From a bacterium (GTDB taxonomy: Bacteria > Patescibacteriota > Saccharimonadia > Saccharimonadales > UBA4665): a stretch of DNA of 64,000 nt. The translations under genes and the position numbers were made by a program. Below are positions 52,556 to 59,611 of this stretch, one piece after another (position 1 is the first letter of the stretch; each line of letters begins with the position of its first letter). The stretch is from positions 1 to 64,000 of the forward strand of contig JAKBVU010000002.1 of assembly GCA_021841155.1 (NCBI GenBank), written 5' to 3'. The notes beneath the pieces are model-generated. The model was not told the origin of the DNA and searched no databases. It worked only from the letters and a program-made list of their open reading frames with translations.

Positions 52556-53590
52556 ATGCCAGATAATGAAACAAAACCAGAAGAAATCGATTTAGAATCC
52601 AATAGTTCAAGTCTTGAAGATAATGTTATCGATGCTACGGGCGGTAATGGTTTAGAAAGTTCAAGTCTTGAAAATAACACCAACCAAAACTCTGAAACCA
52701 ATGATCAATCAAAAACTTCTTCAACGTTAAATTCCCAAAATAAACTAAAATTAAAAGACAAATTAGCCAAATTTAATATTTACCTAATATTATTCGGGTT
52801 AATAGTCGTTTTAACTATTGTGGTAGTTGTAATTACATATTTACAAAGCCAGACTCCTATCAACAATTCAACCAGTCTAAAAAATCAAAATCTAACTCAA
52901 AATAGTCTCAACCAATTGGCTGCTAATGATTCAACTATTGGAGCTCCTAAGCAAAACTTAAATGTTGAGGCTAACGCTGTTTTTGCTGGTCGAGTTTTAA
53001 TCAGTAATGGTCTTCAAGTAGCCGGAGGTGAACAAATTAACGGTGGACTTGGTTTAACGAGCTTAACTGTTAAAGGCACTGGTAATTTTCAACAATTAAA
53101 TAATAGTGGTAATTTATCAGTAACTGGCAATACATCTTTACAAGGTTCAACAACTATTTCAGCTAGCTTACAAGTTAATGGTAACGCTAATTTTAACGGT
53201 AATGTTTCTTCTCCTCAAATAACCACCAATTCTTTACAACTAAGTGGCAATCTTAATCTCTCACATCATATCAATGTTATTGGACCTTCACCGAGTTCCA
53301 CTACTCTTAATGCTATTGGTGCTGGTGGTACGACTACAGTCAACGGTACTGATACAGCTGGTAATATTAATATTAATACAGGCACAAATCCAAGTGCGGG
53401 TTGCTTAATTACAGTGAATTTTAATCTGCCCTACAGTTCTACACCGTATATTGTTGTCTCGCCAATTGGATTAGCGAGTGGTTCAATTCATTACTACTTG
53501 GAACGTAATCAGACATCTTTTAATATCTGTTCCGGTTCAACACCACCTAGTCAAGCAAATATTAGTTTTGATTATTTTATTGTCGGCTAA
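52556..53590 (+). CDS. Membrane-anchored surface protein with beta-helix-like repeats
   Basis: 344 residues: acidic cytoplasmic N-terminus (~70 residues), one membrane segment (about 77-98), then extracellular repeats such as GRVLISNGLQVAGGEQINGG, LTVKGTGNFQQLNNSGNLSV, TGNTSLQGSTTISASLQVNG, NANFNGNVSSPQI that suggest a beta-helix stalk like phage tail-fibre stems. The C-terminal globular domain (ITVNFNLPYSSTPYIVVSPI) may be a tip. Opposite strand to the surface locus, convergent with atpC (4-bp overlap). Confidence 0.7.
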   Translation: MPDNETKPEEIDLESNSSSLEDNVIDATGGNGLESSSLENNTNQNSETNDQSKTSSTLNSQNKLKLKDKLAKFNIYLILFGLIVVLTIVVVVITYLQSQTPINNSTSLKNQNLTQNSLNQLAANDSTIGAPKQNLNVEANAVFAGRVLISNGLQVAGGEQINGGLGLTSLTVKGTGNFQQLNNSGNLSVTGNTSLQGSTTISASLQVNGNANFNGNVSSPQITTNSLQLSGNLNLSHHINVIGPSPSSTTLNAIGAGGTTTVNGTDTAGNININTGTNPSAGCLITVNFNLPYSSTPYIVVSPIGLASGSIHYYLERNQTSFNICSGSTPPSQANISFDYFIVG

Positions 53591-53934
53591 ACATCAAGAA
53601 AAACTATTACTTTATCAGCCTTGACATGCATTAATCCACCAGAAATTAAAATTTTTTGATCACCCTGATCAGATCTAATCAAAAGAGTACAAGCATTAAT
53701 TAAAGTCATAAAATTATGATGACCAGGTAAAATATCAAAAGGACCAACTCGATTTTCAGCACTAATAGAAAAAGCTGGGCCATCAAAATAAATTCGAAAA
53801 GGCGAATAAACCTTAACTAACATTGTGGTTGATGATTTTTTTTTAGAAACTTGTTGATTTAATTTAGTAGCTTCTTGATTTTGTTCGACTTCATTTTTAG
53901 TAGATTTAACTGTACTATTTTGGTCATTATTCAT
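53587..53934 (-). CDS. atpC: F-type ATPase epsilon subunit, short
   Basis: 115 residues. A disordered Lys/Gln/Asn-rich N-terminal extension of ~37 residues ([20 protein letters not shown]) precedes the beta-sandwich domain: [37 protein letters not shown] and [15 protein letters not shown]. The C-terminal helical hairpin, which inhibits ATP hydrolysis in bacterial F1, is missing. Overlaps atpD by 4 bp. Last gene of the operon. Confidence 0.88.
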
Positions 53935-55232
53935 ACAATGATTTCTTCTATACTTTTTAGAGTATCTTCTCGACTAAAAAAATCACCTGGAACTCCGTTT
54001 TGTTTAGTCATAACATTCATATTTTGAGTAAAATTGTTGATTAAACGTTTAGCCTTGGAATAATCTTCTCTATCAGCTGGACTAAGTTCATTTTCACCAA
54101 TAATGGCAATAATACCTTTCAACGATTCATATTTCTGTAATAATGCTTGAACTTGAATACTTAAAAGATAATGTCGTTCACCGACAATTTCTGGAGTTAA
54201 CATTGATGAAGTGGTTAAATTTAAATCAACAGCTGGCCTGATACCCTGTTCAGCAACTTTTCTTGATAAAACTATAATTGAATCCATCTCGTGTTGAATT
54301 AACTGAACAGCTGGATCAGATATATCGTCAGCTGGCACATAAATAGTTTGAACAGAAGTAATCGAACCATTTTCATTAGAACTTAATCGATCTTGTAAAA
54401 TTTTTACATCTGAAAAAACAGTTGGTTCATAACCACCTTCGTTAGGTACTTGATCTAAAATAGTAGCTAATTCATTTTTAGCCTGAACATATCGATACAT
54501 ATTATCAGCAAAAAATAAAATGTCTTTATGTAATTCATCTCGAAAATATTCAGCTGAAGCAGTGGCAGAGATACCAATCAATGATCTTTGAACTGGATTT
54601 TCATTCATTTGTGCAAAAAACATACAAGTATTTTTTAATAAATCATTATCTTTTAAAGTAACATAGAGTTCATGACCTTCCCTAATACGTTCTCCAATAC
54701 CAGAAAAAAAAGATAAACCACCGCCAGCTTGAGCAATATTATTAATTAATTCCATTGTTAAAACGGTCTTACCCACACCAGCACCACCAATAATTCCAAT
54801 TTTACGACCTTTAACGAATGGTGTAAAAAAATCGATTACTTTAATGCCAGTTTCTAATATTTCAGGCTTAGCAATATCAAAATTAGAACTCCGAGCTGGA
54901 ATTGTTAAAATTTCTTTTCGCTTGACCTTATCGTCTAGAGCCTTTAAGCCGTCAAGTGGATCGCCTAATGCATTAAAGATTCGACCGATGGTTTCTTCAC
55001 CAATAGCGACCTCAATACCACGATTAGCCCGAACGCTTTTCATACCTTTTTGTATCGTCATATCTGATCTAATGTTAAGACAAAATACTATGCCATTTTG
55101 TTCTAAATGATCAACTAATAATTCGGTTTTATTGGCATTATCAACTATAACCAACTCATTCACTGCTGGTCCATCTTGATCAAATTTAACTTTAACAACT
55201 AAATCTTTAACCGAAACAACTATACCTGCCAT
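53931..55232 (-). CDS. atpD: F-type ATPase beta subunit
   Basis: 433 residues, shorter than the usual ~465. Walker [10 protein letters not shown] at 149-157, catalytic Glu in [14 protein letters not shown], Walker [18 protein letters not shown]. The DELSEED region reads [19 protein letters not shown], a changed version. [16 protein letters not shown] replaces the usual GIYPAVDP and the C-terminal helical domain is shortened. Catalytic residues are kept, so it should hydrolyse ATP. Confidence 0.95.
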
Positions 55233-55233
55233 G

Positions 55234-58035: not shown

Positions 58036-58651
58036 GATTAACGTCCTCTTTGATAGCTTCTTTATTTTTTTCTAAATCAGCTACAATAAATTGTAATTGA
58101 TCATTAAGATCAATTTGGTTACCAATTGCCATCAAAACATAATGATTAACGATACTGGCCAGATGTTGTTCAAAATTATCTAAAACTTGCTTTTTTTCTA
58201 AATCGATTTGTTTTTGAATTTCATTAGACAAAACTTCTCTTTCTTTATCGATAGCTTGATTAGTTTTTTCAATAGCACTAACAGCTAATTGTCGAGCATC
58301 TTCAAGTGATTGTTCGTATTTTTTAAATTCAGTTTGTAAATTTTTAGTCACTTCATTTTTAAGCGATTCATTAAGTTGTGAAGTCGTTAACTGCAAGTCT
58401 TGTTGTAAAAACATAGCATTCTCAGAAATAATTTTTTCAAAATGAAGTCGACCCCGATTTCTTAATTCCTCTCTAAAAGCATCGTTAAAAATTCGCGCTA
58501 CGTTTTCTTTAATAGCTTGCTCAGATAATTGATTAGTCGATGACCCTCGTTTTTTAATATTTTTTTGAGACTTTAAAACAACTACTAAAACTACAGCTAA
58601 ACCAAGTAAATCTACTACAACGAATAAACTAATCTGCAACCAATTACTCAT
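58025..58651 (-). CDS. atpF: F-type ATPase subunit b
   Basis: 208 residues, one N-terminal membrane segment (about 7-26) then a long charged coiled coil (FEKIISENAMFLQQDLQLTT, EKTNQAIDKEREVLSNEIQK), the usual peripheral-stalk plan; somewhat longer than typical (~160). GGTGG-like GGTGGG ribosome binding site region; a GATAAT box upstream in the 60-bp gap could start a transcript. Confidence 0.88.
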   Translation of the reverse strand: MSNWLQISLFVVVDLLGLAVVLVVVLKSQKNIKKRGSSTNQLSEQAIKENVARIFNDAFREELRNRGRLHFEKIISENAMFLQQDLQLTTSQLNESLKNEVTKNLQTEFKKYEQSLEDARQLAVSAIEKTNQAIDKEREVLSNEIQKQIDLEKKQVLDNFEQHLASIVNHYVLMAIGNQIDLNDQLQFIVADLEKNKEAIKEDVNHGA

Positions 58652-58711
58652 TTATAAGCCCACCATGTTTTTCATTATCTTAATACTATTCTATGTGATT
58701 TTATTATTTTT

Positions 58712-59611
58712 TTAAAGCTTCAGTAAAAGATAGACTGCGAAAATGCCAATTACGAATATAATGATACCGGCTGCTACGGTCTGAATCAAAGATCTAATAA
58801 TAGATTTTCTAGATAACGGATTACGACCGATGGCTATCATACCAGATCGAATACCAGAATAAAGTAAAACCGCTGTTAAGATTGTACTAACAAGTAAAAC
58901 AAATAAACCTAAGTAGATCCTAGCTGCATCGACCGGTTTAGCAGCAATAGTAATCGCAGCTTTAGCTAAGAAACTTGGCACATAATCAATAGATTTATTA
59001 AGTAAGGGATTTTTTTTAATAGCAAGTTGAACTGAAACAAGGCCAATATTAACCTGCTCTTTTTTACCCGATAAAGTAGTTACATTGACCGTTCCAACTA
59101 TATTAGACCTACCGTTAAAATTACTAGTTGCTTGACCTAAAATTATTGATTGATTTTGATCAGCAACCATACCAATTCCATTCAGGGATGAAATAGTAAT
59201 ATATTCCCCCGCTATAACTGGTCCATCTTGATTAGAAACCAAGACATTATATCGACCCGTTGATGCAACATAAACTTGTTGTTTGGTCGAATTAACTGGA
59301 CTAAGCGCAACTGGTGCTACGTTGGCTGGTACAACTACACCTAACATGCTGGCGATATTAGCTTGACTTAAAGGAATAACTTGATTAGAAGTTTTCGCAG
59401 TTAACTGAACAATCATTCCGGTTTGAATCGAAGAAGCTGCACCATAGCTTTGAATAACGGCTTGAGAGATCGAATTACTGTTTGAGTTATTAACAACTGA
59501 AGCTGATTTAGTCTTAGTTGAACTAATCGCTACGGCTGGTACTGATAAGCCTAAAATCAAAATAATAACTATCGCAATAGATGTATATTGATTTTTTAAT
59601 TGATTGAACAT
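58712..59611 (-). CDS. Secreted-domain protein ending in an F0 c-like hairpin (no ion-binding carboxylate)
   Basis: 299 residues at the place of atpE. Signal peptide (about 10-29), extracytoplasmic beta-rich domain (about 50-200; for example QDGPVIAGEYITISSLNGIG, SIILGQATSNFNGRSNIVGT), then two membrane segments (232-253 and 278-298) joined by the basic loop YSGIRSGMIAIGRNPLSRKS. The loop with R263-N264-P265 resembles the RQP/RNP loop of c subunits and the inferred topology (ends outside, loop in cytoplasm) is the same, but TM2 (AAGIIIFVIGIFAVYLLL) has no Asp/Glu where the proton or sodium binding carboxylate should be. It may be a non-pumping rotor anchor, or a CPR membrane protein family merely next to the operon. 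60 bp from atpF. Confidence 0.6.
   Translation of the reverse strand: MFNQLKNQYTSIAIVIILILGLSVPAVAISSTKTKSASVVNNSNSNSISQAVIQSYGAASSIQTGMIVQLTAKTSNQVIPLSQANIASMLGVVVPANVAPVALSPVNSTKQQVYVASTGRYNVLVSNQDGPVIAGEYITISSLNGIGMVADQNQSIILGQATSNFNGRSNIVGTVNVTTLSGKKEQVNIGLVSVQLAIKKNPLLNKSIDYVPSFLAKAAITIAAKPVDAARIYLGLFVLLVSTILTAVLLYSGIRSGMIAIGRNPLSRKSIIRSLIQTVAAGIIIFVIGIFAVYLLLKL

Follow-up and report, generated by a model that had tools for sequence, protein, structure and literature searches.

The window analysed here comprises the first 64,000 nucleotides of contig JAKBVU010000002.1 (assembly GCA_021841155.1), from a patescibacterium of the order Saccharimonadales. It carries on its minus strand an F-type ATPase operon (53587-59611) in which the position of subunit c is taken by a gene for a 299-residue membrane protein, here called X. 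On balance, this locus probably represents a second, ATP-hydrolysing and non-pumping F1-ATPase, in which X, derived from subunit c, would act as a rotor bearing an extracellular head. The F1 part is catalysis-competent as judged by sequence and gene content, and a descent of the X hairpin from subunit c is supported by several weak, mutually agreeing signals. Ring formation, rotation, a load on the outside and a role in host attachment or movement are what we infer from this arrangement. The initial annotation of the stretch had already proposed a non-pumping machine that links F1 to an extracellular domain; the catalytic residues, the missing a and c and the c-like hairpin support it in part, while a rotation that drives the extracellular domain stays conjectural.

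A second F1 gene set beside a canonical ATP synthase

The gene order X-b-delta-alpha-gamma-beta-epsilon, annotated at the outset as an operon devoid of atpB and atpE, is confirmed by the open reading frames (ORFs): neither gene lies within 53587-59611, and the operon strand holds no additional ORF of at least 80 residues inside the cluster. The gene for X (58712-59611) is preceded by a cysteine desulfurase-like ORF, "iscS" by eye, and is separated by a 60-base gap from the gene of a b-like stalk subunit with a single hydrophobic N-terminal stretch (58025-58651). The genes for delta (57550-58035), alpha (56078-57550), gamma (55234-56094), beta (53931-55232) and epsilon (53587-53934) follow closely, with overlaps of 11, 1, 17 and 4 bases for b/delta, delta/alpha, alpha/gamma and beta/epsilon, and a 1-base gap between gamma and beta.

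Alpha, beta, gamma and the epsilon beta-sandwich are matched by Pfam as well as by NCBIfam models, so that gamma and epsilon are both present; Pfam yields nothing usable for X, b or delta of this operon. In profile comparison, delta pairs with its canonical counterpart at a probability of 91% (P 1e-6, versus 0.65 for the reversed control), and b pairs more weakly with canonical b, at 30% (P 5.6e-4, versus 0.028 reversed). In epsilon the Pfam match covers residues 40-113 of 115, and the C-terminal helices are absent; the DELSEED position of beta reads NELSPAD. Both features had been read from the sequence beforehand and hold. The DELSEED motif is altered across the beta subunits of operons with X, NELSPAD being the commonest form (14 of 36 rows). 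These rows comprise the window and 35 further loci with X and F1, and were chosen from the loci together with six of 13 related operons that lack X. In all 36 and in all six X-less rows, beta retains the P-loop lysine, E181, R182 and the Walker B aspartate, and alpha retains the P-loop lysine and the arginine finger R376 (Escherichia coli numbering).

In quick trees, all 42 rows with and without X split from nine canonical beta subunits and from ten canonical alpha subunits, with Shimodaira-Hasegawa-like approximate likelihood ratio test (SH-aLRT) values of 99 and 98, respectively. The alpha tree is flagged because long branches meet in it, and the union of the Saccharibacteria and Parcubacteria sequences is therefore less sure than each set alone. 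NCBIfam models of the mycoplasma type score below their cut-offs with beta (365 versus 570 and 331 versus 850) and with alpha (252 versus 520 and 323 versus 600). Membership of the N-ATPases was considered and rejected, since alpha and beta score lower with the alt_F1F0 models than with atpA/atpD.

The genome that contains the window (G000; 599 kb, 94% complete, 35 contigs) has one match to PF00119 (subunit a), one to PF00137 (subunit c) and four to PF00006 (alpha/beta). Contig C1 carries a complete canonical F1Fo operon, to which atpB, atpE and one pair of alpha/beta genes belong; the window accounts for the other pair. Four alpha/beta genes with a single atpB and a single atpE thus point to two operons, of which the window set is the second F1. 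As the sole PF00119 and PF00137 matches of the genome are in the other operon, the window operon possesses neither an a subunit nor a carboxylate-bearing c. The initial annotation had allowed that a and c might reside elsewhere in the genome, which would speak against a non-pumping machine. They do reside elsewhere, with a complete F1 of their own, and leave the window operon as incomplete as before; since they belong to a second complete operon, their presence does not refute the idea. Within the family, the canonical c subunits (L098-L127) are of two kinds, one with glutamate (..VAIVELFG..) and one with aspartate (..AIVFADSLAII..).

The X protein and its resemblance to subunit c

An AlphaFold model of X, computed from 55 aligned sequences, has a mean predicted local distance difference test score (pLDDT) of 87.7 and consists of three parts. 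Residues 1-30 (59522-59611) are probably a signal peptide or a first membrane helix; helix 8-22 is modelled with low confidence, and the putative signal peptide is deduced from the hydrophobic N-terminus. Residues 50-200 (59012-59464) make up a predicted extracytoplasmic beta domain, modelled as residues 53-200, which in Foldseek and VIA-align comparisons superposes on phage proteins of the cement, decoration and related kinds (Z up to 12.5). This fold is shared with proteins of the Pam3 gp6, E217 gp24 and XM1 gp53 type, to which the sequence match is weak: PF23982 is found in the beta domain of seven of 22 members of the X family, with a best E of 1.4e-5. Unlike the phage proteins, X fuses this fold to a membrane hairpin and is encoded in a bacterial operon.

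The third part is a two-helix hairpin (residues 229-298; 58718-58927), in a region (residues 211-299) whose block pLDDT is at least 90. Its helices, 229-263 and 265-298, meet at a GRNP loop (residues 262-265; 58817-58828), so that the combination of a beta domain and a two-transmembrane hairpin with an R-N-P loop, recognized earlier by eye, is recovered by the model. The hairpin superposes on a chain of the Chloroflexus ATP synthase (9itt) with 1.1 Å over 69 residues (Z 11.1). Among the structural matches shown, all but one (a seryl-tRNA synthetase) come from ATP synthases or rotor rings; the matching chains are 68-85 residues long, and their identity as subunit c is read from entry title and size. 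Sequence comparisons point the same way. PF00137 reaches E 2e-4 in one X paralog, at 22.2 bits the best relative but below the cut-off of 24, and E 0.0027 in one of the 22 members. Four NCBIfam models of subunit C each match one to three of these 22 (best E 0.011). In a search of 177635 PDB sequences, the best match is a c subunit (E 0.065) and a second c subunit appears at E 0.35, with a proteasome chain ranking between the two. Profile alignment of the hairpin to c with hhalign gives P 0.0025-0.006 versus 0.6-0.9 for reversed controls; a rough rule based on text had divided the c sequences in two, and at least one of them ended up in the wrong set.

The loop was followed in three sets of X genes. 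The first (L038-L097) consists of 60 stretches round X from the same family, weak matches left out, with 62 X genes; the second (L132-L166) consists of 20 stretches from the wider order, with 21 X genes; and the third (L167-L239) consists of 73 loci from named genomes, with 71 X genes scored after two hits in long proteins had been dropped, and covers partly the same organisms as the earlier sets. The first two sets were found independently of the loop, and [GA]R[NQ]P is present in 61 of 62 and 21 of 21 genes, the one miss being an X cut by a contig end. In the third set the loop was itself part of one of the two search patterns, which biases its apparent conservation there. A two-helix hairpin with a polar [GA]R[NQ]P loop is a trait of subunit c. 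The second set has GRNP in 20 genes and ARQP in one, and the ARQP variant is also met in canonical c. In an alignment of 18 rows (A1), G262, R263, N264 and P265 are the sole run of adjacent invariant columns. The ion-binding carboxylate is missing: the loop of the window X reads AIGRNPLSRK and its second helix has no aspartate or glutamate, as first annotated, and none of 138 distinct complete X hairpins has an acidic residue at positions +14 to +22 past the loop, the canonical c acid being found by hand count at +17/+18. Lacking both an a subunit and the carboxylate, the complex could not move ions by the known mechanism.

Association of X with F1 and alternative explanations

Of 93 genomes in the family of the window, 75 have a match to X at E <=0.001; in at least one of these (G041), the matches are confined to long proteins that share the beta domain. 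Weak matches in very long proteins (E 1e-9 to 1e-3), which have only this domain in common with X, were excluded from the sets. Among 392 genomes of the order that are at least 80% complete, the X profile matches 179 at the same threshold, from 102 of 147 genera, a few of the matches being weak. Profile models detect alpha/beta within 9 kb downstream of X for 45 of 62 genes in the first set, 20 of 21 in the second and 63 of 71 in the third. The order X, b place, delta, alpha, gamma, beta, epsilon recurs in five loci whose titles name Kaiserbacteria, Parcubacteria or Patescibacteria (L233-L236, L238). Their X proteins are 21-26% identical, with a loop [IV]ISIGRNPLA, and the b place holds an ORF of 239-281 residues, which the b profile matched in L236 only. 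With six alpha/beta genes, the Parcubacteria record of L238 (G412) probably comprises three F-type sets. In a complete genome that bears the label TM7i (L190), the set with X is accompanied by a canonical set, as judged from the number of alpha/beta genes. TM7i has been described in co-culture with Leucobacter (PMC8672522), and allelic exchange has been reported in TM7x (PMC12206443), as far as the available text of both papers goes. F1 and X thus travel together usually, not always; the strict linkage that had been anticipated in a survey of Saccharibacteria turns out to be a strong one (45 of 62 and 20 of 21), with both partners also existing apart.

A number of observations weigh against a c-derived rotor driven by F1. 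The hairpin Z stays below about 13, the level at which helical matches become safe, and long helices match easily. The sequence links between X and c are individually weak: the best PDB match lies above E 0.01, the hhalign probability is just 2.6-4.9%, and the window X itself gives no match to c in Pfam or NCBIfam. Thirty of the 138 hairpins have a glutamate at +12 past the loop, and GxGxG, the packing motif of helix 1 in subunit c, occurs in none of them, so that a tight ring of the c type is not assured. Thirteen of 83 X genes (12 in the first set, one in the second) have no F1 despite at least 3 kb of downstream sequence; the first set has 17 F1-less X genes in all, and for these 12 the length of sequence that follows makes the absence real. 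Some F1-less X genes are in tandem and some stand beside a fibre gene alone. One genome (G058, 82% complete) carries X with no alpha/beta found. Conversely, of the 18 family genomes without X, 13 keep the same operon with an alpha 54-70% identical to that of the window. The stretches examined round these 13 loci contain neither X nor the fibre gene, and between b and the upstream gene no c-like small ORF is seen among ORFs of at least 50 residues. The other X-less genomes are one with a cut locus and an alpha 44% identical (G003) and four with canonical-like matches only. Four changes, at least two of them forced, are needed to account for the six X-less rows on the beta tree, and X has therefore probably been lost more than once.

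Some of these observations also feed the rival that fares best, although we think it rather unlikely: that X and the fibre-like protein are a surface module of their own, situated next to an F1 that is soluble or anchored by b, with a hairpin that is a mere membrane anchor and resembles c by convergence. The 13 loci with F1 and no X, the 13 X genes with no F1, seven X genes (six in the first set, one in the second) with a fibre gene near and F1 not, and the missing GxGxG would all fit such a module. It does not explain well why the loop of X equals that of c, even to the ARQP variant in one paralog, and is the only adjacent invariant run in A1, why X is in most cases found ahead of b, at the place of c, and in one genome (G250) stays in the operon though moved, or why several searches return subunit c.

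In the reading that we prefer, a second F1 with X as rotor, alpha3 beta3 gamma epsilon together with delta and a membrane-anchored b stalk would hydrolyse ATP and move no ions, X standing in for the a subunit and the c ring. X would be a derivative of subunit c that has lost its ion-binding carboxylate and has gained an N-terminal export signal and an extracellular domain with the phage-cement fold. The cytoplasmic GRNP loops could bind the foot of gamma and epsilon, as in a c ring, and take up torque. ATP hydrolysis might then turn (or tug) X against the b-delta stator, and the motion would emerge outside the cell at the X head and perhaps also at the fibre-like neighbour. It could also be imagined that X forms a static ring or pore, on which F1 acts as a clamp or gate, for example in secretion or uptake, and not as a motor that turns something outside. 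The lack of an a subunit as stator partner in the membrane would be in keeping with this, as would the nature of phage-cement folds, which are structural rather than motile parts; yet gamma, epsilon, delta and probably b have been retained, and it is through these subunits that rotation becomes useful, so that we hold a static ring to be improbable.

Genomes in which this operon is the only F-type set found bear on whether the second F1 depends on a canonical Fo. Among the 179 X-bearing genomes of the order, 169 have an a subunit and ten have no PF00119 match, as listings compared by eye indicate. Six of these ten (G115, G116, G123, G134, G249 and G250), drafts from five families that are 95-99% complete, have exactly two alpha/beta genes each; PF00119 found no a subunit in them, and subunit c was not searched for there. 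In all six, X sits in a b-delta-alpha-gamma-beta-epsilon operon, five times before b and once, in G250, after epsilon (L275, contig C2), again within the only F-type operon found, and each X has the GRNP loop. An overlooked gene is possible in any single draft, and less so in six; that F1 with X is the only set found argues against the borrowing of a normal Fo. Left out of this count were G087, in which an additional, incomplete alpha/beta match lies at the end of a contig, both G227 and G326, where canonical alpha/beta are present despite the missing PF00119 match, and G058, which has no alpha/beta. Two further candidates, G047 and G064, had seemed from alpha/beta scores to lack a canonical F1 and were rejected, as atpB lies near a contig end. 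In G227/G406, the canonical alpha (contig C1, 32062-32715) is found in an open frame of 11043 residues, perhaps a result of masked bases.

That the second F1 is an alternative head which docks on canonical a and c and pumps ions is very improbable: canonical a and c do exist in the window's genome, most X-bearing genomes have an a subunit and X-less F1 operons persist, but the six genomes with neither a PF00119 match nor further alpha/beta genes largely refute it for these drafts, and X occupies the c position with no ion site.

The fibre-like neighbour and its surroundings

The divergent neighbour of the operon (52556-53590, plus strand) appears to encode a fibre-like surface protein with one hydrophobic helix and a bactofilin match below the cut-off. 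Its model (pLDDT 69) has no PDB match at E 0.001. A fibre gene is present within 12 kb of X for 39 of 62, 18 of 21 and 40 of 71 genes in the three sets; it is missing where X is missing, and X is often present without it. The ARQP paralog of X (L166; G089, contig C10, 2648-3466) lies between two fibre-like genes, with no F1 in the following 3.9 kb. In L090 and L093, X genes occur as a tandem pair, and no F1 is found in the stretch around them.

The fibre gene and an mnmA-like gene flank five ORFs (47263-52487), most of which have no Pfam match. Judged by eye, this block is absent from many X-less loci, where an ORF that looks like mnmA comes soon after epsilon. Further away, an ORF at 41027-42784 with a Baseplate_J match (E 3.1e-6) adjoins an FtsA-like ORF (42786-44132). 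Twenty ORFs were scanned for pilus genes between 24.7 and 52.5 kb, on one side of the operon, and none scored above the cut-off; one FtsA-like ORF in this region has a PilM_2 match below it.

Comparison with known systems

With the canonical F1Fo of the same genome (contig C1), the window set shares the gene order and homologous F1 subunits, delta and probably b. It is set apart by the absence of a and of a carboxylate-bearing c, by an epsilon without helices and by the changed DELSEED motif. Literature searches that listed up to 20 titles each brought up no description of X, of its c-like loop or of this operon. A related beta of Saccharimonadia, however, has been noticed already: Seymour et al. 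(2023; PMC10066038), in the portions available, describe for Omnitrophota an F-type ATPase that is non-respiratory and has a beta that clusters with that of Ca. Saccharimonadia, among others; encoded near type IV pili and resembling types 2 and 3, it is proposed to serve attachment or motility. The same portions mention no X protein, c loop, b/delta or loss of a/c. This work is cited in a paper on Saccharimonadia in connection with the part that ATPase and pili play in attachment (PMC12592800, accessible part), and the F-type ATP synthase genes of Southlakia epibionticum are dispensable according to the accessible part of PMC10633639. F-type genes in Patescibacteria are, moreover, no proof of ATP synthesis by themselves, as six genomes yielded no F-type set other than F1 with X.

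Non-pumping F1 motors have been characterized mainly in mycoplasmas, and their coupling to the surface is left unexplained in the available parts of these papers. The closest known systems are the Type 3 F1-like X0 of the MIB-MIP system and the Type 2 G1-ATPase of Mycoplasma mobile gliding, which, as in the window, are F1-like sets additional to a normal F1Fo and lack a and c. According to the accessible text of PMC3369863 and PMC12994834, the mycoplasma clusters have no b or delta and contain a protein with 12 transmembrane helices and a small cytoplasmic protein; proteins 1, 2 and 5 were judged not to be homologous to any Fo subunit. In contrast, the window set keeps delta and a b-like protein, has no gene for a 12-helix protein, and has a hairpin with the loop of c; counterparts of the 12-helix protein 1 and the cytoplasmic protein 2 are absent from the cluster among ORFs of at least 80 residues on the operon strand. 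In its modelled layout X may resemble mycoplasma protein 5, which is described in part of the literature as having a signal peptide, an ectodomain and two C-terminal transmembrane helices; the likeness is one between that description and the X model. The predictors used in 2012 were split over the topology of protein 5, mostly outside versus inside (PMC3369863, in part), and no NCBIfam model named for this protein came up with X at E up to 10. The available text on M. mobile mentions a hypothesis that GliD is derived from b and delta (PMC11864180).

By analogy with the mycoplasmas and with the proposal for Omnitrophota, attachment to host cells or movement on them could be guessed as the role of the window set. 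A broader view, which we put forward tentatively and would not yet expect to hold, is that of a machine spread throughout the Patescibacteria, a degenerate c ring with heads of the phage-cement type turned by cytoplasmic ATP, and an intermediate between F1Fo and the mycoplasma F1-like X0. If so, the two-helix membrane protein of mycoplasmas would also be a worn-down subunit c, and the b and delta lost there would still be present here. Because a recognizable stator (delta and probably b) and a plausible rotor (X) are both kept, the question of how such motors are coupled to the cell surface becomes testable in this system.

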